The notes beneath the pieces are model-generated. The model was not told where the DNA came from and made no database searches. It was given only the letters and a program-made list of their open reading frames with translations. DNA of 40,025 bases. It comes from a virus. Positions 9,569-25,727 of the stretch are shown piece by piece (the stretch's first letter is position 1; every line of letters begins with the position of its first letter). The position numbers and the translations under genes were made by a program. Where the stretch lies: IMG/VR virus record IMGVR_UViG_3300021960_000187, positions 1 through 40,025 of that record; one strand, written 5' to 3'.

Positions 9569-9706
9569 TTAATCTAATGATTCCACAATATTAATTATAG
9601 TTTTTTTGTCTATTTTTAAAACCTTTTCAATATCTTCATTGGTAAAGTCTAACAATTTAAGAGTATGAATAAGTTTTTTTATTTTTTCAAATTCTTGATA
9701 TTCCAT
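9569..9706 (-). CDS. Tiny 45-residue helix-turn-helix-like protein
   Basis: Read from a gap, one base after the oxygenase stop. It begins MEYQEFEKIKKLIHTLKLLD. The segment DFTNEDIEKVLKIDKKTIINIV looks like a helix-turn-helix of the 'sense the next codon, then bind' type seen in small helix-turn-helix proteins. It is AT-rich like the rest of the halogenase island and is its last gene before the terminator. It may be a small regulator; that is inference. Confidence 0.65.
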   Translation of the reverse strand: MEYQEFEKIKKLIHTLKLLDFTNEDIEKVLKIDKKTIINIVESLD

Positions 9707-9707
9707 T

Positions 9708-10247
9708 TTAACAATATGTCGCAATCATGATTATTCTTCTTTGGTTTCTTAGAGGTTGTCCTCCAGAATGGAGTCCCTCAAAGGAAATAATTGCATCTTC
9801 TTTGGGTTGAAAATAGTAAGTTTTTTCATCTCCATATACAATAGTTTCTCCCTCAGCATTATTCAAGTAAATTAAAAGATTTTTATGAGGAAAATTATGA
9901 TCTACATGTGGGATAGTTGGGTTTCCGTCAATATAATATGTACAATTAAAGTTAACTCTGAAAAGAGAATTAATTTCAAAAGAATTAAAAATTGCAATCT
10001 CTTTAATTACTTCATTAACTATATTAATATATTTTTCTGATGTTACTCTTGGATATAAGTTATCCTTCATTGACTGTGTGGGACGTTCTAACACACAATG
10101 ACTGTAAAATGGAACATCAGTATATCCATCGCATTTTTTATTGTAGGTGCTATATTCAGTCCAATACCAAGCGAAAGTTTTACTTAAAACTTGTTTTTTT
10201 AAAAAAAGATAATTTTCTGTCAATGGATTTTTAAGTTCTTCAATCAT
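9708..10247 (-). CDS. 2OG-Fe(II) oxygenase-like protein
   Basis: 179 residues. The iron triad is visible: H114-x-D116 (IPHVDHNFP) and H160 (FEGLHSGGQP), with R171 (QRRIIMIATY) placed to bind 2-oxoglutarate. Between them are the expected jelly-roll strands, NLLIYLNNAEGE and EDAIISFEG. Such enzymes hydroxylate proteins or small molecules in the cytoplasm. It overlaps the halogenase gene by 8 bases, so the two are likely coexpressed. The N-terminal ~95 residues show no separate domain. Substrate unknown. Confidence 0.85.
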   Translation of the reverse strand: MIEELKNPLTENYLFLKKQVLSKTFAWYWTEYSTYNKKCDGYTDVPFYSHCVLERPTQSMKDNLYPRVTSEKYINIVNEVIKEIAIFNSFEINSLFRVNFNCTYYIDGNPTIPHVDHNFPHKNLLIYLNNAEGETIVYGDEKTYYFQPKEDAIISFEGLHSGGQPLRNQRRIIMIATYC

Positions 10248-11826
10248 TTAAATTAAATTCCTTCTTCATAAATTCATACAAACTTTGCTCATCTCTAGCA
10301 TGATTATCCCAATTTTCTTTTAGATTATCCCAATATTCTATAATTTCTTTTAATCTAACTTCAGTATCTTCAACGTTTTTATAAAATTCATTTTCCATAA
10401 TATTGTTTATAGTCAAGGCAGGATAATTCATGCCATTTGCTATGCAACTGAATCCTCCTTTCTCATAGTGTCCATCTTTTTTATCTTTGATGTCCATGCT
10501 TAATTTAAATTCACAGTCATTTAAAATTCTACTTGAATCGGTTTCTCTGCCAGTCACATCTCTCCAATAGTCAGTGTCATCTCTTGCGGAAAGTTTGTAG
10601 TGCAAGGAAACAAATTTTGCAAAATTATCGTATAATTTAAAAGTCGAATAGTTATATACATCAATATCCCACTGATTTACTTTTTCTTTACTTAAAGCAT
10701 CGACTAATTTTAGTAAAAATTCATGAACTGTAAAAAGTCCATTACTTTCTAAAGGTTCTATGAACCCAGCAGATAATCCAATTGCAACAACATTTTTAAA
10801 CCAAGTTTTTTCATGAATACCTATTCTCATTTGTATATTTTTAAATTCTAAATCATCATTGATTCTTTCACGATTTGGAATAGTTGTTTTAGTTCTTAAA
10901 TGTTCTTTAAACTCTTCTAGTGCTTCTTCATCTGTAATATATTTGTCGCTATAGACATATCCTGTTCCTATTCTGCTCCACAAAGGAATATTCCACACCC
11001 AACCATTACCAATGGCAGTGCAGTTTGTATAAGGTTCTAATTCTTTTTCTTTGTCAATATAAGGTATTCTTGTAGCCCAAGCTTTTGTATTAGGAAGAAT
11101 ATCACTATATGAATTAAATTTTACATCTAGTGATTTGCCCAGCAATAAACTTTTCCAACCAGTACAATCAACAAAAAGATCTGCAGTAACAACTAAATCA
11201 TTATCCAAAAGAATTTCGGAGATTCCATCTTCATTTGAAAGAACATGATTGACATTTGCGGAAATAAAATGAACTCCTCTTGGAATACAATATTTGTTCT
11301 TTAACCAATCTGCAAATTTAGATGCATCAAAATGATAAGCAGAGTCATGTTTCAGATTAAAATTTCCAAAGTAACCGTTTTCATTTTTACTTATTTTATT
11401 TTTTTCAATTAATGAAATTGCAGGGAAAAACGTTTTTGCATAATCAGTAGGACAAGTATCTTTATATAAAGTTTTTTTGAGTAACCAGGTATTGTTATTG
11501 TATAATTCTTTATTATCAACATAAATTTTACCAAAAGGATAATGGAAATGTCCGTAATCTTTTTGATAGAAATCCGTAAATTTAATACTTAATTTAATTG
11601 ATGCATCAGTCTCTAAAATAAAGTCTTTTTCATCAATTCCCAGCGCATATAACCAGTATTTGATATGTGCTAGTGTACTTTCTCCTACACCAACGGAAGA
11701 AATTTTTGGACTTTCGATTAAAATAATTTGTTTTTGTGGAAAGAAATTAACAAGGGTGGCGGCAGTCATCCATCCTGCCGATCCTCCACCAACAATTACG
11801 ATAGAATTAATATTTTTATTTTTCAT
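10240..11826 (-). CDS. prnA: Flavin-dependent tryptophan-halogenase-like protein
   Basis: 528 residues, close to PrnA-family length. Visible features are the FAD-binding GGGSAG (13-18), GVGES (46-50), K78 in ASIKLSIKF at the position of the catalytic Lys79 of PrnA, and the family signature W276-V-W278-N-I-P281 (GWVWNIPL). EPLES around 357-361 provides the conserved active-site Glu. Such enzymes use FADH2, O2 and halide to make HOCl, which the Lys passes to an indole ring; a separate flavin reductase is needed and none is seen here. The key residues look intact. The substrate could be free tryptophan, a peptide or another indole. It sits between oxygenases in an AT-rich island. Confidence 0.9.
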   Translation of the reverse strand: MKNKNINSIVIVGGGSAGWMTAATLVNFFPQKQIILIESPKISSVGVGESTLAHIKYWLYALGIDEKDFILETDASIKLSIKFTDFYQKDYGHFHYPFGKIYVDNKELYNNNTWLLKKTLYKDTCPTDYAKTFFPAISLIEKNKISKNENGYFGNFNLKHDSAYHFDASKFADWLKNKYCIPRGVHFISANVNHVLSNEDGISEILLDNDLVVTADLFVDCTGWKSLLLGKSLDVKFNSYSDILPNTKAWATRIPYIDKEKELEPYTNCTAIGNGWVWNIPLWSRIGTGYVYSDKYITDEEALEEFKEHLRTKTTIPNRERINDDLEFKNIQMRIGIHEKTWFKNVVAIGLSAGFIEPLESNGLFTVHEFLLKLVDALSKEKVNQWDIDVYNYSTFKLYDNFAKFVSLHYKLSARDDTDYWRDVTGRETDSSRILNDCEFKLSMDIKDKKDGHYEKGGFSCIANGMNYPALTINNIMENEFYKNVEDTEVRLKEIIEYWDNLKENWDNHARDEQSLYEFMKKEFNLND

Positions 11827-11829
11827 TAC

Positions 11830-12429
11830 TCAAAATCTAGCAAATTGAACCATTGAAAATCTTCCCATATTTTTTTCAAGATATTGTGCATTCATTTCTA
11901 TTTTTTCAACACTATGTTTAATCACAGATGGAAAGATTATTGTTTTATTATTATCAACTTCTATTTTAATATCATAATCATCAAATATCAAATTTCCATT
12001 TTTAAATCTTTTTGGTTCTTTAAAAAACCAAGTTATTGCTGAAAAATATGCTTGATCTGCATGTTTTTCATAATAGTCTGAATTTTCATAATATGAAATT
12101 AAAGTGGTGTCTGTATTGAGACAGTCTTGTTTAAAAAACCAATGTGGATGATTTTCCCAAATAAATTTTCTATGAACAAAAATTTTTCTATTTACCGCCA
12201 AAATATTTGAATATTTTCTATCAGCATATACGTTATCTAACCAAACTCCAATATTTTTTTTCAAATAAACATCATTTTCAACTGCAGATCCAGTCTCTTC
12301 GGGAGAAGACATTTTTTCCCGATGACAAATAAATTCTAATTCTTGCCAAATTAAATCTAATTCGTCTCCATCAAATAAATCATTAACAATAATATATGGA
12401 AATGGTTCACAATAATGTTTTACATTCAT
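11830..12429 (-). CDS. 2OG-Fe(II) oxygenase-like protein
   Basis: 199 residues. The triad reads H123-x-D125 (YYEKHADQAYFS) and H172 (SVIKHSVEKI), with R190 (NMGRFSMVQF) as the 2-oxoglutarate ligand. Strand segments ITWFFKEPKRFKNGNLIF and KTIIFPSVI fit the double-stranded beta-helix. AGAGG lies before the ATG. It stops three bases before the halogenase start, so both are translated from one message. The substrate is not predictable from sequence; adjacency suggests the same pathway as the halogenase. Confidence 0.85.
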   Translation of the reverse strand: MNVKHYCEPFPYIIVNDLFDGDELDLIWQELEFICHREKMSSPEETGSAVENDVYLKKNIGVWLDNVYADRKYSNILAVNRKIFVHRKFIWENHPHWFFKQDCLNTDTTLISYYENSDYYEKHADQAYFSAITWFFKEPKRFKNGNLIFDDYDIKIEVDNNKTIIFPSVIKHSVEKIEMNAQYLEKNMGRFSMVQFARF

Positions 12430-12448
12430 TTCAAATACCTCTTTAAAA

Positions 12449-12976
12449 TTATATCGTAATTAATTTATAAGCAAGTGTTATTCTTAATCCAAGAAAATCT
12501 TTGGAAACGGGTTGAGAAAAATGCTTTATGTATCCAGCAAAATAAACACCAGAAAATGGTTCTGGATATACTGTATAAACATCTTCTTCGCAGTCAAATA
12601 CAGTTGCTCCAGCATATTCAATATTCCAATAATCATTGCAATAAATTAAAAGCGTTCTTGAATTCTCTCTGGTATCATCTTCATGAAGATATCCTTGCTG
12701 TCCAAATGTATGCCCATTTAGATAAATTCGTTGAACCTTTACATCTTCATTGCAATAACATTTAATATGTTTTTTGATTGAATCAAATAATATTTCACTA
12801 AAAAATTTATTATTTTCTACATTTAAGTACCAAAATAATTTATTTTTATTTTCTTCATTGCTGGAGCCACTAAATTTCCATCCTGGAGAATCATTAGATT
12901 CATTCAGTAATTTTATTTCATTTAATAACTGAACTTTTTCATTATCAGTTAATATATCCAAAAGTTTTACTATCAT
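12449..12976 (-). CDS. 2OG-Fe(II) oxygenase-like protein, prolyl-4-hydroxylase-like layout
   Basis: 175 residues. H98-x-D100 (GYLHEDDTRENSRTLLIYCN) and H152 (GYIKHFSQPV), then R165 (GLRITLAYKL), form the expected iron and cosubstrate sites. The wording 'H-x-D ... LLIYCN..W....GATVFD' is like P4H-type phage oxygenases. First gene of the halogenase island, lying 24 bases after the glycine-rich adhesin gene. I see no good ribosome site. Its substrate could be a protein, and the neighbouring glycine-rich adhesin is a candidate only by position. Confidence 0.85.
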   Translation of the reverse strand: MIVKLLDILTDNEKVQLLNEIKLLNESNDSPGWKFSGSSNEENKNKLFWYLNVENNKFFSEILFDSIKKHIKCYCNEDVKVQRIYLNGHTFGQQGYLHEDDTRENSRTLLIYCNDYWNIEYAGATVFDCEEDVYTVYPEPFSGVYFAGYIKHFSQPVSKDFLGLRITLAYKLITI

Positions 12977-13000: not shown

Positions 13001-13915
13001 TTATGTGGTTTTCCTAAATGTTGGTATAGATCTACCTCGAATTACAACTAAACCATGTCCACCGGGATTATCATTGTAAGCTCCGTTTCCACTTCCTTGA
13101 ATGCCAGCTCCGCCTGCATATGGAGTACCCCCACCACTAGCAAAAACTCCGTTAAGGGGAGATAATCCTGGAAGACCTAGATTACTAGATGTCATTCCAT
13201 ATTCTGTCATATTTCTTGATGATCCTCCGCCGGGACCACATCCCCCGGATCCGGGGGATCCTTCACTAAATGTTGCTCCTGGGACAGATCCTGGATCGCC
13301 TGAACCACCAGCCCATTGGTTATTGTGTCCACAACCACCACCGCCGCCAGAACCACCACTATCACCACCAAAACTGCCTGCAGGTTGTCCTGAAGAAGTT
13401 CCTCCTCCACCACCTCCAGCGGCAGTATAACTTTGAATAGAGCTACCATTTCCAGGATATCCTCTACCAGCCTGATAGAGGGTTCTTTGTCCACCAGATC
13501 CAGTTGTAATTTGGAGTGTTCCTTGAGCTGGAAAATTTTCATTATAAAAAACGAGTCTACCAGCGCCACCACCACCAGAAGTATGCCCACTTGGCATACC
13601 GCCAGTTCCGCCACCACCACCTACCATAAAAGCAGTGATAGCACTCCCTCCTGCAGATGCAGCAGCTCCTCTAATAAATTTACTTTTTACATAACCAGCA
13701 GCTGTGGTTTTCCCACCAATAGTAAGAGTTCCTGTTTGATTTTGATTACTTCCTTGTGGAGTTGTATTACTAAATACATAAAAAGTACTACTAACCCCAA
13801 CAACTTTGCTAGAGCCTGTTCCAGTAATAGAAGTAACTTCTGCAGCAAGACTATTTAATCCAGAAATATCATCAGTTACGTGATAAATCGTACTTAGTCT
13901 GTTTAAGATGTTCAT
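13001..13915 (-). CDS. Glycine-rich adhesin-like tail fibre tip protein
   Basis: 304 residues. The N-terminal ~90 residues are ordinary Ser/Thr/Gly beta sequence and probably attach to the fibre. Residues ~95-290 are dominated by Gly runs separated by short loops, ending in GGHGLVVIRGRS. This resembles the glycine-rich domain of phage receptor-binding proteins (T2/S16 gp38-like polyglycine-II sandwich) and the common 'GG.G.VVIIRY' ending of cyanophage fibres. The tip loops would contact the host receptor. It follows the chaperone-like gene directly, as gp38-type adhesins often do. Confidence 0.8.
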   Translation of the reverse strand: MNILNRLSTIYHVTDDISGLNSLAAEVTSITGTGSSKVVGVSSTFYVFSNTTPQGSNQNQTGTLTIGGKTTAAGYVKSKFIRGAAASAGGSAITAFMVGGGGGTGGMPSGHTSGGGGAGRLVFYNENFPAQGTLQITTGSGGQRTLYQAGRGYPGNGSSIQSYTAAGGGGGGTSSGQPAGSFGGDSGGSGGGGGCGHNNQWAGGSGDPGSVPGATFSEGSPGSGGCGPGGGSSRNMTEYGMTSSNLGLPGLSPLNGVFASGGGTPYAGGAGIQGSGNGAYNDNPGGHGLVVIRGRSIPTFRKTT

Positions 13916-13918
13916 GGT

Positions 13919-14386
13919 TTAATTTATGTCTAAATTAAAATGATCGATGATACATTGTGGAGGAGTTGGCCAAGTAAAGTCAAGTGGATCTGTAATTGTA
14001 GATGGAAAATCTCTCAATGCTTTTCTATATGCTAATAGATTATCTTTTTCTTCTTCCGTAATTGGATAATCAGAATGCATTAATTGATCTGTCTCAACTA
14101 ATCTTGCATTTCTTTGACTTCTCATCAAATTCCACATTTCAACTTCTGAAATTTCTTCTACTTTTCTTGGAACTACATTCCATGTTAAAGCATCAGAATC
14201 CCATTCTAATTCTTCTGTGCTAGTATCATGTGCTGGTTTGAAATATGGACCCGTTGCTCCAACATCAGCAAGCTCTTCATCTGTCCATGAACTTGGTTCA
14301 GTTCTAATTTGCCCAGATGACAAAAGTATACTGGTAATAAAAATTGGTTCGGTGCCATTAAAAGAAAAATACATTGTTCTGTCCAT
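13919..14386 (-). CDS. Tail fibre assembly chaperone-like protein
   Basis: 155 residues. Residues ~82-145 match the layout of phage tail assembly chaperones: W-N-L-M-R-S-Q-R-N followed by ETDQLMHSDYPITEEEKDN, then YRKALRDFP and a TWPTPP end. Those proteins help fold or attach tail fibres and usually sit beside the fibre or adhesin gene, as here with the glycine-rich protein three bases downstream. AAAGGAGAG precedes the ATG. It occupies the place that MAHFA-type proteins hold in the other cassettes, though before rather than after the adhesin. Confidence 0.8.
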   Translation of the reverse strand: MDRTMYFSFNGTEPIFITSILLSSGQIRTEPSSWTDEELADVGATGPYFKPAHDTSTEELEWDSDALTWNVVPRKVEEISEVEMWNLMRSQRNARLVETDQLMHSDYPITEEEKDNLLAYRKALRDFPSTITDPLDFTWPTPPQCIIDHFNLDIN

Positions 14387-14406: not shown

Positions 14407-14778
14407 TTACGAAATAGTTTCGTATGAAATTACAACATCAAATGCGTTAGAAGCTGATGATGTAGCAACAAGAGATGTATTTTCCGTTAGATAAAGCGAA
14501 GATGCTCTATCAAGAACAACGAGAGATGTTTGTGATGTAATACCAACGTTCTTAGTAATACCATATGCAGTTCCACCGCCAGCTGCATTATTGTTCCAAG
14601 TTAAAGTAAAGTTAGCGGTACTGGAGCTTACGTTACATGCTTCAACGAAATTAACTTTATATACAACTCCACTTGCTGCAGCGTTAGAAAGAATAGATGT
14701 TGCACTGGTATTGGATAATGCTGTTGCAGTGGTTATTCCATTAATAGTCGCAACATTAACAATATTTGGGTTTGCCAT
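14407..14778 (-). CDS. Small virion beta protein, 'PNI' family copy 1
   Basis: 123 residues beginning MANPNIVNVATINGITTATA and ending DVVISYETIS. It shares its whole layout with the genes at 25737 and 23485: a PNI start, a Val-rich first strand, a middle strand series with TN-rich loops, 'YLTEN.SL' and 'SYE' at the end. Probably a small head- or tail-associated beta-sandwich protein; no enzyme motif. A TATAAATA box lies 24 bases before the ATG, so late expression is likely. Confidence 0.8.
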   Translation of the reverse strand: MANPNIVNVATINGITTATALSNTSATSILSNAAASGVVYKVNFVEACNVSSSTANFTLTWNNNAAGGGTAYGITKNVGITSQTSLVVLDRASSLYLTENTSLVATSSASNAFDVVISYETIS

Positions 14779-14801: not shown

Positions 14802-14809
14802 TATTTATA
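14802..14809 (-). promoter_or_regulatory. T4-type late promoter box TATAAATA
   Basis: An exact TATAAATA on the minus strand 24 bases before ATG 14778, in a 49-base AT-rich gap. It matches the T4 late-promoter -10 used by gp55-type sigma. Confidence 0.75.
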
Positions 14810-17223: not shown

Positions 17224-18186
17224 TTATATCCAACGAGTTTTGTATCTAATTAATACAACACCGGGACCTCCTGAACCTCCACCCAGTATACCACCATTAT
17301 TACCAGCGCCACCGCCGCCTCCACCAGTATTAGTTGTACCAGGAGTTCCAGGAGTATTAGTACCACCAGGTCCGCCACCACCTGTTCCACCCGGAGCAGC
17401 AGGCCAGCGTGTCGCTAGATTTTCTTGTGCGGCATTGCCGCCGCCACCACCACCTCCGCCAAACCATCCACTATCACCAACAGAAGTTCCAAAATATGGA
17501 GAAAAGTCTGTGCCAATGCCACCAGCTCTAGCATAATTCAGCCCCCATCCTCCAGGAGGTGGGGCTACATTTGAACCGGGAGCTCCTGCGCCGCCACCGC
17601 CGCCACCAGAACCTGGAGATGAGGGATTTCCATAGGCAATAGCTTGAGCTGGAACTGGGTATGGATCTGCTAAACCACTACTTGCACCACCAGAACCGCC
17701 AGGATAACCATCGACAGGTCCACCATTACTTGCCCTACCACCACCTCCTCCTCTGGCAGTTAATATTCCAACAAGACTACTATCACTTCCTCTAGGTGTT
17801 GTGGTAAATCTTCCAGCAGGATTTGAACCGCTTCCTATCGAAACTGTGTAACTTCCCGCTGTTAAGACATGTCCTGGTAAAAATGCAACCCCACCTGCAC
17901 CTCCGGCATTACTGTTGTATCCATCTCCACCTCCTCCACCACCGGCAACGACAAGAACATCAACAGCATCTCCAAAAGAACCAACAGAAGTAACTGAAAG
18001 AGTTCCTGACGTAGTAAATTTATGAATTGTATAATCGCTATAGTAAACTATTGTGCCACCTGAAGCGATTATTCCACCAGCAGCCGCTCCCCCACCACGA
18101 ACAAAACTATCTCTTTGATAACTCAATAAATGCCCATCGCTTCTAGTATTTTGTCTCTTATTCTTATTAGTGGTTTTTGCTCCCAT
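17224..18186 (-). CDS. Glycine-rich adhesin-like protein, cassette 3
   Basis: 320 residues. A basic start (MGAKTTNKNKRQNTRSDGHL) is followed by a beta region with SGGTIVYYSDYTIHKFTTSG and VDVLVVAGGGGGGDGYN, the typical entry to a Gly-rich domain. Long Gly/Pro loops then run to a GGPGVVLIRY end. This matches the Gly-rich receptor-binding fold seen in the other three cassettes. The PG-rich loops, including collagen-like GTPGT repeats, are the most likely receptor contacts. Confidence 0.8.
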   Translation of the reverse strand: MGAKTTNKNKRQNTRSDGHLLSYQRDSFVRGGGAAAGGIIASGGTIVYYSDYTIHKFTTSGTLSVTSVGSFGDAVDVLVVAGGGGGGDGYNSNAGGAGGVAFLPGHVLTAGSYTVSIGSGSNPAGRFTTTPRGSDSSLVGILTARGGGGGRASNGGPVDGYPGGSGGASSGLADPYPVPAQAIAYGNPSSPGSGGGGGGAGAPGSNVAPPPGGWGLNYARAGGIGTDFSPYFGTSVGDSGWFGGGGGGGGNAAQENLATRWPAAPGGTGGGGPGGTNTPGTPGTTNTGGGGGGAGNNGGILGGGSGGPGVVLIRYKTRWI

Positions 18187-19346: not shown

Positions 19347-19895
19347 CTAAACAGATTGATGTTTTGGAAGTTTGGGTAATAAATCAAAAGAAATAATCGT
19401 TCGTTGCTTTCTTGACTGATTGGGATGAGCGAAATGTAAAGTATAGGAAGGAACAATAAACAGTGTGCCCTCTTTCACATCTTGTGGATATGCAAGAGTT
19501 GTTGTATCTGTTCTTGGATCTTGCCAGGGGGCAAGAAAACAAGTAGGAGTATGATATTTTGAGTCATACTCGACATAAAGAACACCAGAAAATCCCCAAC
19601 TTTTATGGTTGTGAATACCTTGATAGTCTCCTTGTTTATATCTGACTACCCAACAATCAGTCATGCTACAAGTGACTTGTGCTTCCCGACAAAACTCATT
19701 TAATTCTGGACGAATAATTTCTTGAAAGTAATGTAGATATGATTTCTTGTTAGTGCTTCTGTCTGTCTCAAAAGTTTGCAGAGTGGTTCTTAAAAACTTT
19801 TGAGAGTTAATACGATTTAACAAACCCTTCTTTTTAAAATCCCAGTCATCAATCTGATATTGATAGGAAGGGTATTCAAAAAGTGGTGCCTTCAT
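19347..19895 (-). CDS. 2OG-Fe(II) oxygenase-like protein (HxH variant)
   Basis: 182 residues. The signature GIHNHKSWGFSGVLYVEY (93-110) and FIVPSYTLHFAHPNQSRKQR (146-165) match the phage 'putative 2OG-Fe(II) oxygenase' group, where the usual HxD reads HxH (H95, H97). A later His (154 or 157) and R165 complete the site. It starts by an ATGA overlap with the oxygenase upstream, so the two are translationally coupled. Substrate unknown. Last gene of the first oxygenase island. Confidence 0.8.
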   Translation of the reverse strand: MKAPLFEYPSYQYQIDDWDFKKKGLLNRINSQKFLRTTLQTFETDRSTNKKSYLHYFQEIIRPELNEFCREAQVTCSMTDCWVVRYKQGDYQGIHNHKSWGFSGVLYVEYDSKYHTPTCFLAPWQDPRTDTTTLAYPQDVKEGTLFIVPSYTLHFAHPNQSRKQRTIISFDLLPKLPKHQSV

Positions 19896-20622: not shown

Positions 20623-21348
20623 TTATACCTCTTTTTTGGTTTTTAATCCTCCCAAAATCCATCCTTCACCAGGACATTCTTTTGAGAACTTTTGTTGTTC
20701 ACCATTATTCCAAAGTTTTCTGCCAACTTTTGTTTGACCTATTTTATTACGAACTTCTGGTGGTGTTATTTTACCATAATTTGGATTTCCTTCACCTTTA
20801 TTATTTTTTCTAAACTTTTCTTTTGACTCTTCACTATGTTTTCTGCCAATCCAAGGATGTGGTTTAGTTTCCCAAACTTTTTTTATTTCTTGTTTTAAAA
20901 GTTCTCTTGTTTCTATTGAATGCGTTTTACCGTGAAATGGATTATTTTCTCCTTCATAAGATCTACGATTTTTTACATATCCGTTATTTTCTATTTGATG
21001 TTGACGAATAATTTTTTTCGTTTCTTCTGTGTGGGATTTTCCATAAAAAGGATTTTTTTCACCAAATTTTTTCTCCGCATAGTAAAATCCAGTTGTTTTT
21101 TGCCTTGCTTTATTTGCAAAATGTGGATTTTTATCTACTTGATAAAACTTATGTAAATCTACTTCGGCTTGAAGTGCTTCTTCCCTTGTAGAAAATGTTT
21201 CAAGAACTATCTTATTAGTTGGACTAAAAGTTTCGTCGTGATAAGAACCAAGATAATCATCATCCTCTGAGAGGCAGTTGCAGGTTCTACAACCTATGTA
21301 ACCCCTCCCAAATTCTTCATAAGAGTAATAGACATAATGATTTTCCAT
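20623..21348 (-). CDS. GIY-YIG homing endonuclease with NUMOD3 motifs
   Basis: 241 residues. The N-terminal catalytic domain is GIY-YIG-like: YVYYSYEEFGRGYIGCR (5-21) with the Tyr pair and R21, a Glu in TREEALQAEVDLHKFY (about 54-69) and N79 in FANKAR. Four NUMOD3-type DNA-binding repeats follow: NPFYGKSHTEETKK, NPFHGKTHSIETRE, HPWIGRKHSEESKE and NPNYGK. These free-standing nucleases cut cognate phage DNA lacking them and spread by repair. It sits between two oxygenase genes with no intron. A CATAAATA box lies inside an upstream stem-loop (21367-21397). Confidence 0.85.
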   Translation of the reverse strand: MENHYVYYSYEEFGRGYIGCRTCNCLSEDDDYLGSYHDETFSPTNKIVLETFSTREEALQAEVDLHKFYQVDKNPHFANKARQKTTGFYYAEKKFGEKNPFYGKSHTEETKKIIRQHQIENNGYVKNRRSYEGENNPFHGKTHSIETRELLKQEIKKVWETKPHPWIGRKHSEESKEKFRKNNKGEGNPNYGKITPPEVRNKIGQTKVGRKLWNNGEQQKFSKECPGEGWILGGLKTKKEV

Positions 21349-21403: not shown

Positions 21404-22024
21404 TCATTTCCAACGTGGCCCACACGTCCAACCTACCAAACTCTTACGGGTTCCTTTTGTAACTTTAAGAACTCTATGCATTGTGCGAGAATCAAACAAA
21501 ATCACAGTACCACGCTTACGAGGAGCAATATAACTATTTCCTCCCTCATCAAGCAGTTGTAGGTTGCCACCTTCATAGTCATCAGGATCGCTCAACTGAA
21601 CCACAAAGGACAGTTTACGAACAAGTTCAATATTTTCATTTAAGAAATCTTGTGCAAGTCCTTCTTGACGATTACCAACAGTTACTGGTTTGTATTGAGT
21701 GGCAAGTCCTGCATCATTGTGCCAACCATAGAACTGTCCTTCACTATACTTTGTGAACTGCATTGACTCTCCATCAATACAACGGAGATCATATAGGAAG
21801 TTCTCGCGGTTTGCTCTTTGAATGTAATGCCACACAAATCCACCAACCCAGTGATTGGTAGGAATCCATGCGTTTTGAGAATTTCTTTTTTCTTTGTTTA
21901 AGGCATCTCCGTGCAACCTGGAGTCTGCCATTTGTTCATCAAACTTTTCTGTTAGATCTCTTTCGATAATATCTACTACATCTTCTGGTAGATCGCTAAA
22001 ATACCAAATTGATTGAAATGCCAT
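21404..22024 (-). CDS. PKHD-type 2OG-Fe(II) oxygenase
   Basis: 206 residues. It has the classic layout H102-x-D104 (YGWHNDAG), RKLSFVVQLSDPDDYEGGNL (136-155), H183 (SRTMHRVLKV) and R193 (GTRKSLVGWTCGPRWK). This matches the PKHD/PiuC-type hydroxylases that are common in cyanophages. The N-terminal ~85 residues form the usual cap. A perfect sigma70 promoter stands directly upstream, so unlike its fibre neighbours it is probably early. Substrate unproven; peptide, amino acid or protein hydroxylation are all possible. Confidence 0.9.
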   Translation of the reverse strand: MAFQSIWYFSDLPEDVVDIIERDLTEKFDEQMADSRLHGDALNKEKRNSQNAWIPTNHWVGGFVWHYIQRANRENFLYDLRCIDGESMQFTKYSEGQFYGWHNDAGLATQYKPVTVGNRQEGLAQDFLNENIELVRKLSFVVQLSDPDDYEGGNLQLLDEGGNSYIAPRKRGTVILFDSRTMHRVLKVTKGTRKSLVGWTCGPRWK

Positions 22025-22561: not shown

Positions 22562-22569
22562 TATTTATG
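22562..22569 (-). promoter_or_regulatory. Late-promoter-like box CATAAATA
   Basis: Seven of eight bases match TATAAATA, 33 bases before ATG 22529. It overlaps the stop region of the glycine-rich gene. Confidence 0.45.
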
Positions 22570-23482
22570 AAGGGTATGCGATGATGACAATACCAGAACC
22601 ACCATTAGCATCACCACCGCCACCACCTCCAGTATTTGTCGTGCCCGCACCGGCTGCCGCACCTCCGCCACCAACACCACCAGTGCCTGAGACAACCGGA
22701 TTGGGAGAAACCCCAGGTACAAAATAAAAGTTTCCTGCACCACCTCCAGCATAATATGTTGTTATTCCAGTTATGGTTGTTGATGCTCCAGAACCTCCAT
22801 TACCTGTTTGAGATGTGGTAGCATTACCTCCGCTACCACCGGCGCCACCGCCACCGCCGCTAGATATTAGGAAGTTATCAGTAGCTCCAGATCCTCCAGA
22901 ATTTCCTTGTGGCGGCGAAAATGGTGGAGTATTTCCACTTCCTGCTGCCCCCCAGCTTCCACCACCACCCGATCCTCCTGAAAGACCAGGATTTCCCTCA
23001 AATGCATTTGCGTTACTTGCTCCAGTTCCACCACCAGAAGCAGTTATAACTCCAACATAACCCACGCCAAGTACGGAATTACTACCATTGCTTGATGGTG
23101 GAGAAGTGGACCCAGATGATTTATTTCCACCCCCACCAACAGTAATTACATATATTCCAGAAGATGCACTTAATGGAAATGAAGATCCAGATCTAAATCC
23201 ACCACCACCACCGCCACCACCGGCATTATATCCACCACCGCCGCCACCTGCAACCACAATATAATTGACAGAAGTGAGTGTTGGGTTGCCAATGGTAAAA
23301 GTTCCAGATGATGTAAAAGTATGGACAGTCGTGGTTGGAGTATAGGAAATTGTGCCGCCAGATGCTTTAACTCTATCCCATTTTCCTAATCTATTTAAAT
23401 AATCTTGAGAAGAAATATTAAAGATTCCTCCATCAGTATAAGAAGTTATCGCATACCCAACTCGATTTCCAGTATGTCTCAT
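22565..23482 (-). CDS. Glycine-rich adhesin-like protein, cassette 2
   Basis: 305 residues. The start MRHTGNRVGYAITSYTDGGI leads to a strand region, then TVHTFTSSGTFTIGNPTLTS and VNYIVVAGGGGGGYNAGGGG, the common entry to a polyglycine receptor-binding domain. It ends GGSGIVIIAYPS. The Gly-rich loops between residues ~90 and 300 differ from those of the other three adhesins while the framework stays, as expected for a tip under host selection. It stops two bases from the upstream PNI gene. Confidence 0.8.
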   Translation of the reverse strand: MRHTGNRVGYAITSYTDGGIFNISSQDYLNRLGKWDRVKASGGTISYTPTTTVHTFTSSGTFTIGNPTLTSVNYIVVAGGGGGGYNAGGGGGGGGFRSGSSFPLSASSGIYVITVGGGGNKSSGSTSPPSSNGSNSVLGVGYVGVITASGGGTGASNANAFEGNPGLSGGSGGGGSWGAAGSGNTPPFSPPQGNSGGSGATDNFLISSGGGGGAGGSGGNATTSQTGNGGSGASTTITGITTYYAGGGAGNFYFVPGVSPNPVVSGTGGVGGGGAAAGAGTTNTGGGGGGDANGGSGIVIIAYPS

Positions 23483-24677: not shown

Positions 24678-25727
24678 TCAATATGGTGCTTGATTTGTTG
24701 TACGAGAATATCTTAGAATCACAATTCCGCCTCCCCCTGAACCTGCGCCTTGCGGACCGCCGCCACCGCCACCGCCACTTCCAGTTATTGCTACTCCATT
24801 TCCACGAGAATCGGGATTTGGGTTGGGACCACCAGCGCCGCCGCCGCCAGATCCCCCCGCTCCTCCTGCACCAGGAGATCCACTTCCCCTTCCACCTCCA
24901 CCGCCTCCATATAATCCGGTAGGTCCTGTAGCAGAAATAAATGCAGGTTGTTGTGGTGCTGGTAGTGTTGGTGCAATAATTGGTGCTGGGAAAATTGTGA
25001 AGGATCTACCTGCACCGCCTGAACCACCACCGCCAGGAGGATTGGAAGTTCCTCCGCCACCAGAACCACCTGCTCCACCGCCACCACCATCTCCTCCACC
25101 TGGGTTAGCGCCAGCGCCACCAGGATTACCATATCCAGTCATAATACCCGCCGATGATGGGAATGGTACTTGAAGTGCTGTACCGCCGGGTTTGGTCGGA
25201 TTATCGCTGATGCCACCGCCACCAGAACCACCGTTAACACCCAAACCAGGTCCGCCACCCCAACCGCCGGTACCACCACCAAAAGCAGTGAATGCAATTC
25301 CCGCACTCGGAGAAGAAAATGTTGTAGGACTTCCACTGCTAGAACTACCACCACCGCCTCCTACAGTGATAGTATAAGTCCCTACGCCAACTGCAATTTG
25401 GGTTCCATAAAGAATTCCACCCGCACCGCCGCCGCCGTAAAAACCACCGCCGCCGCCACCAATCATCAAAATATCAACATTTGATCCAGTCGTAACAGTC
25501 AATGTTGTTGGAGAAGTGAAAACTCTATATTCAACATCCCCTGATTGAGTAGTTGCACCACCAACAGCTTCAAAAACTTTTGAAAATCTTGGCCACCAAA
25601 TGCCACCCAATTTTTCTTCTATTCTTTTATTCCATTCAATATCATTCAAATACCAAATACCAGAAGATCCTAGTACAGTTCCAGTTTGAGCAATTCCTAA
25701 CCAACTTCCAACTCTTTTTGCACCCAT
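24678..25727 (-). CDS. Glycine-rich adhesin-like protein, cassette 1
   Basis: 349 residues, the longest of the four. It begins MGAKRVGSWLGIAQTGTVLG and the next ~60 residues are a Trp-containing attachment part. Then come YRVFTSPTTLTVTTGSNVDI and ILMIGGGGGGFYGGGGAGGI, followed by about 200 residues of Gly-rich loops ending GGGGIVILRYSR. The plan is the same as the adhesins at 22565 and 17224, with different loops. Confidence 0.8.
   Translation of the reverse strand: MGAKRVGSWLGIAQTGTVLGSSGIWYLNDIEWNKRIEEKLGGIWWPRFSKVFEAVGGATTQSGDVEYRVFTSPTTLTVTTGSNVDILMIGGGGGGFYGGGGAGGILYGTQIAVGVGTYTITVGGGGGSSSSGSPTTFSSPSAGIAFTAFGGGTGGWGGGPGLGVNGGSGGGGISDNPTKPGGTALQVPFPSSAGIMTGYGNPGGAGANPGGGDGGGGGAGGSGGGGTSNPPGGGGSGGAGRSFTIFPAPIIAPTLPAPQQPAFISATGPTGLYGGGGGGRGSGSPGAGGAGGSGGGGAGGPNPNPDSRGNGVAITGSGGGGGGGPQGAGSGGGGIVILRYSRTTNQAPY

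Follow-up and report, generated by a model that had tools for sequence, protein, structure and literature searches.

The stretch of viral DNA analysed here, referred to as the window, was the linear 40,025-base virus record IMGVR_UViG_3300021960_000187, a fragment of a marine T4-like cyanophage genome in which a flavin-dependent halogenase and three 2-oxoglutarate (2OG)-Fe(II) oxygenase-like genes, designated O1, O2 and O3, lie directly behind a glycine-rich, adhesin-like gene. The window was placed among the T4-like cyanophages (Kyanoviridae) because its minus strand holds long tail-fibre and baseplate-type genes and because its nearest named phage DNA was that of Synechococcus phage S-SM2 (79.9% across 734 bases). 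The identical (100%) halogenase was present on two additional contigs. A first-pass annotation had described an A+T-rich island at 9569-12976, and every element that it named was located in the list of open reading frames (ORFs), by profile matches or as a hairpin. The unit itself reaches further upstream than this island, to approximately 14.8 kb.

All features of the unit are on the minus strand. It begins with a T4-type late promoter motif, TATAAATA, at 14802-14809, 24 bp upstream of an ORF (14407-14778) encoding a 123-residue protein that matched nothing in Pfam or PHROG. The next gene encodes a tail-fibre assembly chaperone (13919-14386; PF16778 Phage_tail_APC, 9e-17, 61.1 bits against a cut-off of 26.6; phrog_4912 'tail fiber assembly', 5e-18) and is followed by the gene for the adhesin-like protein, the probable fibre tip (13001-13915; 304 residues, 27% glycine; PF21722; phrog_2295, 8.6e-5). 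The enzymes come next, O1 (12976-12449; 175 residues; phrog_274, 1.6e-20), O2 (12429-11830; 199 residues; phrog_61 '2OG-Fe(II) oxygenase', 8.7e-23; PF13640, 0.001, under the cut-off), the VirX1-like halogenase (11826-10240; 528 residues; PF04820, 6e-104; phrog_2928, 3.5e-142; VirX1, 1.9e-97) and O3, with a prolyl hydroxylase-like fold (10247-9708; 179 residues; phrog_274, 1e-28). The last gene is a 45-residue ORF taken from the ORF list (9706-9569), which gave helix-turn-helix-type matches only below threshold and when read as 51 residues. An intrinsic terminator hairpin, then TTTTATAAT, occupies 9539-9513 (-16.8 kcal/mol, z -3.27, none of 200 shuffles as stable). The close packing of the island reported earlier was borne out, with spacings of 19 bp, 3 bp, an 8-bp overlap and 1 bp between successive genes, as was the succession of 45-residue protein and terminator.

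Six exact copies of the late motif occur in the window. All are on the minus strand, and a minus-strand start follows each one at a distance of 20-32 bp. The count was not unusual (6 against a mean of 3.8 in shuffles), but the placement was, since words of the same composition were placed likewise at 33 of 194 sites, which gives P(6/6) = 2.4e-5. Because a copy precedes the ORF at 14407-14778 and no further exact TATAAATA occurs between 14802-14809 and the hairpin, the region 14778-9569 may form one late transcript. Among the related loci L004-L045, some of them near-duplicates, a motif in the 60 bp ahead of the gene was present for 7 of 49 glycine-rich genes, for 4 of 137 oxygenases and for 16 of 596 other genes; none of the 46 halogenases had one.

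The gene at 11826-10240 was assigned as a flavin-dependent halogenase by family and motifs. Its profile score against PF04820 was 348.9 bits (cut-off 21) and the motifs GGGSAG at residue 13, WVWNIP at 276 and EPLES at 357 were intact. In an alignment of 40 phage halogenases (alignment A3 comprised 19), Lys78 and Glu357 were invariant, while the first tryptophan of WxWxIP was kept in all 40 and the second in 39. The enzyme had been called PrnA-like with intact motifs; the motifs and Lys78 are all there, but the closest solved relative is VirX1 of cyanophage Syn10 (PDB 6qgm; 330.6 bits), ahead of PyrH (277.8 bits) and PrnA (212.9 bits). VirX1 is 37% identical to the window halogenase over 514 aligned residues and collinear with it (window residues 6-520, VirX1 residues 4-522), with the lysine and the glutamate conserved. 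VirX1 has a wide-open active site and a broad substrate range and prefers iodination, and no native substrate is stated in the accessible part of the review that describes it (PMC8407142). The tryptophan halogenases PyrH, PrnA and RebH have family and motifs in common with the window enzyme, with a similarity that stops near its residues 422-433 (PrnA residue 408). Residues 443-454 of PrnA, approximately, are the ones we take to hold the tryptophan backbone. Free tryptophan is therefore the less likely substrate, because the similarity to the tryptophan halogenases ends ahead of these residues, whereas VirX1 aligns from 6 to 520. Among the targets suggested originally, residues of the glycine-rich adhesin now rank first and free tryptophan has receded for want of the C-terminal similarity. 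Neither a flavin reductase nor a pathway gene was found among the window genes scanned against Pfam and PHROG.

In the 40-row halogenase tree, the window enzyme and VirX1 both fell inside a 36-row part, and the halogenases of S-PM2, P-SSM2, HTVC008M and S-SSM7 branched outside the main clade. The S-B64 enzyme lay inside the main clade, yet its gene is located among recombination genes. The best matches in genome contigs, at 55% and 41%, were in metagenome-assembled genomes, followed by bacteria at 38% or less. One of these metagenome-assembled genomes (L133), which may be a viral contig, carries the block G...O-O-O-H-O-O-O, where G, O and H stand for glycine-rich, oxygenase and halogenase genes.

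The three oxygenases had been described as distinct. There are indeed three 2OG-like genes, but O1 and O3 are paralogues of one family and O2 is from another. The metal triad HxD...H is present in O1, O2 and O3 as HED, HAD and HVD, respectively, each with the distal histidine, and the two triad histidines were invariant in 24 of 24 sequences in alignment A2 and 41 of 41 in alignment A4. O1 and O3 alone had no Pfam match and their PHROG match was phrog_274, labelled 'DNA endonuclease V'. In whole phage genomes the phrog_274 matches overlap those of phrog_61 and phrog_81, and 28 of the 41 aligned relatives of O3 and O1 match PF13640. The O3 model (predicted local distance difference test, pLDDT, 91.9) was mostly beta with the 2OG fold, a double-stranded beta-helix, and its top structural matches were 2OG enzymes. 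Foldseek placed PHD2/EGLN1 first (1.2e-6), while the profile of the O3 family (A4) matched EGLN1 at 1.9e-7 and prolyl 4-hydroxylases (P4H) as well. The protein prolyl hydroxylases (EGLN1/PHD2 and the algal and bacterial P4H enzymes) have the same fold and HxD...H...R motif as O3, at approximately 14-16% identity. The predicted fold by itself leaves a protein substrate unproven.

T4 endonuclease V has an all-helical fold. The identification of O1 and O3 as endonuclease V was rejected, since the modelled O3 fold is largely beta, with 2OG oxygenases as its structural matches, and the family profile matches EGLN1. The 'DNA endonuclease V' or denV labels of phrog_274 in many cyanophage records look wrong, because O3 has a 2OG fold like that of PHD and P4H enzymes, and the family is one of 2OG-Fe(II) oxygenases. 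These labels bear on a role of the oxygenases in DNA repair or, through consumption of 2OG, in 2-oxoglutarate/nitrogen balance, as has been proposed for cyanophage 2OG genes (PMC3037559; cited in PMC9146016). We consider such a role very improbable here: apart from the fold and the doubtful label, a repair gene is absent among the neighbours, and the halogenase would be left unexplained. The structural matches of O3 also included the Pseudomonas putida P4H bound to EF-Tu (4iw3), and 2OG enzymes are scattered through cyanophage genomes, both of which would suit enzymes that act late in infection on host targets (surface glycans, lipids, or proteins of which EF-Tu would be one), perhaps to prevent superinfection or to bring about host shut-off. 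That explanation does not account for the link to adhesin and chaperone and appears quite improbable, if less so than repair. The resemblance of marine phage 2OG oxygenases to EGLN3 has already been reported (PMC12774648).

The adhesin-like protein scored 23.8 bits against PF21722 (Gly_rich_2), just below the cut-off of 24.3, and 15 of 15 aligned relatives matched phrog_2295. The single sequence had no match in the PDB, while the family profile matched the Pam3 tail fibre first, at 0.0045, a suggestive level in low-complexity sequence. The model was poor (pLDDT 48.8). Fibre tips of the S16 gp38 and Pam3 gp24 type are characterised by Gly-rich repeats carrying -GGGGxGG- type motifs and by a polyglycine-II type lattice fold. 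The lysine content of the glycine-rich proteins was low (1-10). The 13001-13915 product is, on these matches, a probable glycine-rich fibre tip. In the myocyanophage Pam3 (gp24 and gp25; 7yfw, 7ypx), the receptor-binding tip is formed by a glycine-rich domain, which the neighbouring chaperone embraces (PMC9608196), and gp38 of T2-type phages is another glycine-rich tip (PMC12892980). Pam3 resembles the window in having the tip gene beside the assembly chaperone and differs from it in that tailoring enzymes go unmentioned in the accessible text of PMC9608196.

The grouping of a halogenase and hydroxylase-like enzymes beside a fibre adhesin was confirmed and recurs across phages. It had been called unusual, which holds in part for the gene combination; in marine T4-like phages it is common. 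A halogenase match was present in 65 phage records, of which 16 were examined for context, the remainder being mostly near-duplicates or left out. The closest parallel in gene order was Sf-CH11 (PV340848; G-O-O-H-O-O), with a halogenase 48.9% identical to that of the window and the succession fibre, 2OG, 2OG, halogenase, 2OG, 'ferrochelatase', which agrees with the order glycine-rich, O, O, H, O of the window. Sf-CH11 differs in having no PF16778-annotated chaperone directly upstream and in the extra oxygenase-like gene and second glycine-rich/LamG gene that follow. The arrangement G-small gene-H(-H)-...-O-O-O was found in Syn10, S-RIM44, S-CREM1, Sf-FP1, Sf-FR1, S-WAM1, S-SZBM1, P-TIM40 and P-RSM6. 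The gene order thus varies while the linkage persists, across 33-53% identity to the window halogenase. VirX1 itself belongs to such a block, which in Syn10 consists of two glycine-rich genes, a 164-residue gene, a halogenase, VirX1 and then 2OG genes. Both VirX1 and the window halogenase adjoin glycine-rich fibre-like genes and 2OG genes, but the window halogenase has two oxygenases before it and one after, whereas in Syn10 the two halogenases come first and the oxygenases afterwards. Between the end of the last glycine-rich gene and the first halogenase lie 453-1161 bp in ten isolates. Of the 80 genes that come next (eight per isolate, each of at least 150 residues), 51 encode a halogenase or 2OG oxygenase, compared with 22 of 84 elsewhere in the loci.

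The linkage was assessed in complete phage genomes by rotation, with distances measured between gene centres. Of 23 halogenases in the 14 genomes with both features, 12, VirX1 included, had a Gly_rich_2 gene at 3 kb or less; 1.08 were expected, and 0 of 10,000 rotations reached the observed number. A 2OG gene lay at 3 kb or less from 13 of 25 halogenases (expectation 6.24; 75 of 10,000 rotations), with no excess at 1.5 kb (3 against 3.7 expected). For 53 of 196 2OG genes, a Gly_rich_2 gene was no farther than 10 kb away (expectation 26.9; 8 of 10,000 rotations). The test left out the window and rows weaker than approximately 4.7e-24 (phrog_274), 6.2e-26 (phrog_61) and 3e-18 (phrog_81), and the phrog_81 positions were taken from among the matches listed. 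2OG centres within 300 bp of each other were merged, as were the split halogenase matches of genomes W09 and W13, and a short halogenase fragment of W06 was dropped.

The contig census covered the best 80 of 591 relatives and the best 80 of 576 relatives and comprised, for viral contigs, 106 loci, 104 of them with a halogenase and 83 once copies at 95% were removed. With at least 1 kb on each side, 40 of 69 non-redundant halogenases had a 2OG neighbour on the same strand, 20 of the 69 on both sides. Of 53 contig loci, 32 had a glycine-rich gene no more than 6 kb from the halogenase, and 20 had one upstream, on the halogenase strand and at most 4 kb away. More than one halogenase was present within 3.5 kb in 11 of 45 contig loci, and L097, L088, L089 and L077 have three or four consecutive halogenases interleaved with 2OG genes. 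In one contig (L080:4752-6725), a single 657-residue ORF combines a halogenase-like part (residues 3-345) with a 2OG part (residues 436-627; 6.5e-66 to the best relative); WxWxIP is degenerate in its halogenase-like domain. In L069, a PF16778 chaperone immediately precedes the halogenase. Other tailoring genes near the halogenases of relatives encode sulfotransferases, carbamoyltransferases and a glycosyltransferase-like protein, and in two loci (L005:4314-5090, L117:6830-7564) sulfotransferase genes (PF00685/PF13469) lie in or right after the halogenase-oxygenase block.

Recurrence of this kind could arise if the genes were hot-spot cargo, carried in a variable insertion zone between the fibre genes and gp13 and sharing position or ancestry but no joint function or action on fibres. 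Such variable regions are known in cyanomyoviruses (PMC3037559) and the genomes share synteny; moreover, 2OG genes are found at many further sites (5-23 strong matches per genome) and are not enriched within 5 kb of Gly_rich_2. The contents of the blocks are nevertheless non-random, as the 51 of 80 next genes in the isolates indicate. Among contig genes at most three positions from a halogenase, 163 of 435 encode 2OG oxygenases, compared with 63 of 583 among those farther away, and the two domains are fused in L080. On the halogenase tree the fibre-linked label (25 rows) required 7 changes, where shuffled labels required 12.4 (0 of 500), although the label was set by the analyst from gene maps and shared descent alone could suffice to yield it. 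Cargo without joint function is an improbable account, somewhat above an action on the host.

The points established are the genes and their recurrent setting, the intact catalytic motifs, the 2OG fold of the O3 model, the late motif and the terminator hairpin; from them we infer a single transcript, late timing, a protein substrate, the identity of that substrate and a benefit to the phage. The interpretation that we favour, at roughly even odds, is a protein-tailoring cassette, expressed late, whose enzymes add hydroxyl and halogen groups to the fibre tip or to a different virion protein. It is preferred because the halogenase is linked to Gly_rich_2 genes in a block that persists despite its variable order and that in Syn10 contains VirX1, because 2OG genes are its neighbours and in L080 its fusion partner, and because the block is placed behind a late motif while none of the 46 related halogenases has a motif of its own. 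Moreover, the lowest E-values of both the O3 profile and the O3 model were to protein prolyl hydroxylases, the chaperone adjoins the adhesin, for which Pam3 is a precedent, and other tailoring genes occur near relatives.

Transcription would proceed from the late motif at 14802-14809 through the chaperone, the adhesin, O1, O2, the VirX1-like halogenase, O3 and the 45-residue ORF to the terminator at 9539-9513. The chaperone would hold the nascent tip, as gp25 of Pam3 holds gp24, while the 2OG enzymes would hydroxylate side chains of the tip, those of proline and possibly asparagine, aspartate or lysine. With reduced flavin supplied by a host reductase, the halogenase could modify exposed aromatic side chains (tyrosine, tryptophan, histidine) using chloride, bromide or iodide from seawater. 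The modified tip might be protease-resistant, stiffer or provided with new chemistry for contact with the receptor. Marine animals make hydroxylated and halogenated glycine-rich adhesives, a possible parallel to such a tip. As a tentative generalization, held at clearly less than even confidence, marine phages may oxidatively mature their receptor-binding fibre tips by means of co-transcribed prolyl hydroxylase-like enzymes and VirX1-type halogenases that put hydroxyl and halogen on the glycine-rich tip.

Ranked second, and rather unlikely, is an auxiliary metabolic cassette whose enzymes act on a small host metabolite (an indole or tryptophan derivative, a pigment or another aromatic), yielding for example a halogenated compound useful in infection. 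This is the usual published view of cyanophage prnA: a pyrrolnitrin-type step or cell protection was proposed for the S-SZBM1 gene (PMC9146016) and an altered host metabolite activity in a 2023 review. The family name and the nearest cellular enzymes point to tryptophan or indoles, VirX1 accepts many small aromatics in vitro (PMC8407142), O3 also resembles small-molecule 2OG enzymes and psbA or hli genes are found near some phage halogenases. Against it, the ten fibre-linked isolate blocks contain no gene annotated to a pathway for a compound of this kind, the cassette is placed beside adhesin and chaperone and behind a late motif, and the similarity to tryptophan halogenases stops before the C-terminal part.

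Several observations weigh against a tailoring of the fibre tip. The top structural Z-scores of O3 include small-molecule enzymes and PiuC-type proteins, and the fibre role of the adhesin rests on weak matches (PF21722 below its cut-off, Pam3 at 0.0045 and a poor model). In the contigs, glycine-rich genes were no commoner near halogenases (30 of 435) than farther away (35 of 583), and a 2OG or glycine-rich neighbour was present in 41 of 53 viral loci and missing from the other 12. In the complete genomes, 2OG genes were not enriched near Gly_rich_2 at 3 kb (8 of 196 against 9.1) or 5 kb (20 against 14.2) but only at 10-15 kb, and since the compared genomes share ancestry, the rotations are not independent evidence per genome. 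The loci of Syn10, P-TIM40 and S-SM2 are without an exact late motif, and several phage halogenases, those of S-B64, S-MbCM6, S-PM2 and P-SSM2, are located elsewhere. Finally, the virion proteome of S-SZBM1, which has 30 proteins and includes the upstream structural proteins 51-54, is reported without the glycine-rich proteins 48-49, the halogenase (46) and the oxygenases (42-44) in the accessible text (PMC9146016). Their absence is expected for enzymes and unwelcome for the adhesin, where few tryptic sites or modified peptides could perhaps explain it.

Cyanophage halogenases and many phage 2OG oxygenases are usually counted among the auxiliary metabolic genes, their roles being guesses, and no link of either to fibre modification was found in the accessible Creative Commons-licensed PMC literature. 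The association with adhesin, chaperone and late motif makes fibre modification an idea that can be tested concretely and cheaply on cultured phages. If fibre-tip maturation is correct, the viral halogenases would act natively on a virion protein, and the fibre tip would carry a chemical layer, added by this set of enzymes, that is invisible in the tip gene alone. Halogen or hydroxyl groups on the fibres would thus add a chemical layer to host recognition in very common viruses of the sea and make these phages a source of protein-modifying halogenases, whereas a clean negative result would return attention to small molecules.

The base composition of the island had been taken as a sign of separate acquisition. 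The island is richer in A+T than its neighbours, with a G+C fraction (GC) of 0.284 compared with 0.388 for the remaining minus-strand genes. Its low GC mostly follows the amino acid composition, because codon positions 1 and 2 drive the difference (0.338 against 0.479) while the third-position value (GC3; 0.178, with 0.207 overall) equals that of the late and fibre genes, mostly 0.13-0.24. When the enzymes were recoded with the codon usage of the rest of the window, the expected GC was 0.304-0.319 and the observed 0.256-0.297, a small residual, and halogenase and oxygenase genes were below their neighbours in GC at 16 of 16 loci in other phages and contigs. A sharp step in GC3 occurs at approximately 9.45-9.57 kb, downstream of the terminator, from about 0.18 above to 0.19-0.42 below, with the island on the fibre side. 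A recent foreign island was consequently rejected, the composition being no longer foreign once amino acids are allowed for; of the earlier interpretation as a whole, the recurring association of enzymes and adhesin survives and the separate acquisition does not. A flank search of viral contigs with the chaperone, O1 and O3 recovered two contigs only, each with this same region, and neither offered an empty site for comparison.

The remaining minus-strand genes of the fibre region include three further Gly_rich_2 paralogues, the second at 17224-18186, the third at 22565-23482 and the fourth at 24678-25727, and two additional 2OG oxygenases amid the fibre genes, one of phrog_81 (19347-19895) and one of phrog_61 (21404-22024). 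The gene at 19892-20662 matches the 'ferrochelatase' PHROG 2954 but clusters with 2OG oxygenases in transitive protein searches, and the name may be wrong. A homing-endonuclease-like gene (20623-21348; phrog_314) lies between two tailoring-type genes of the fibre region. A connection of 2OG genes with host adaptation through ORF23 of S-TIM4, which was mutated (PMC6224464), was unsupported, as that gene is among baseplate and CP12 genes rather than in a fibre block. In L024 (1066-2295) and its relatives in L023-L026, a 409-residue protein (phrog_1458) with a Cys-rich end is encoded between a phrog_1787 gene and the halogenase; it had no match in Pfam or the PDB, and 2OG genes are absent there. 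Another conserved protein (phrog_7084), encoded by L031:13571-14359 and similar genes of 230-290 residues, is often found downstream of the halogenase, with a weak DUF6065 match in L088. In the window, a sigma-70-like site at 9499-9471 stands ahead of the gene next after the terminator.

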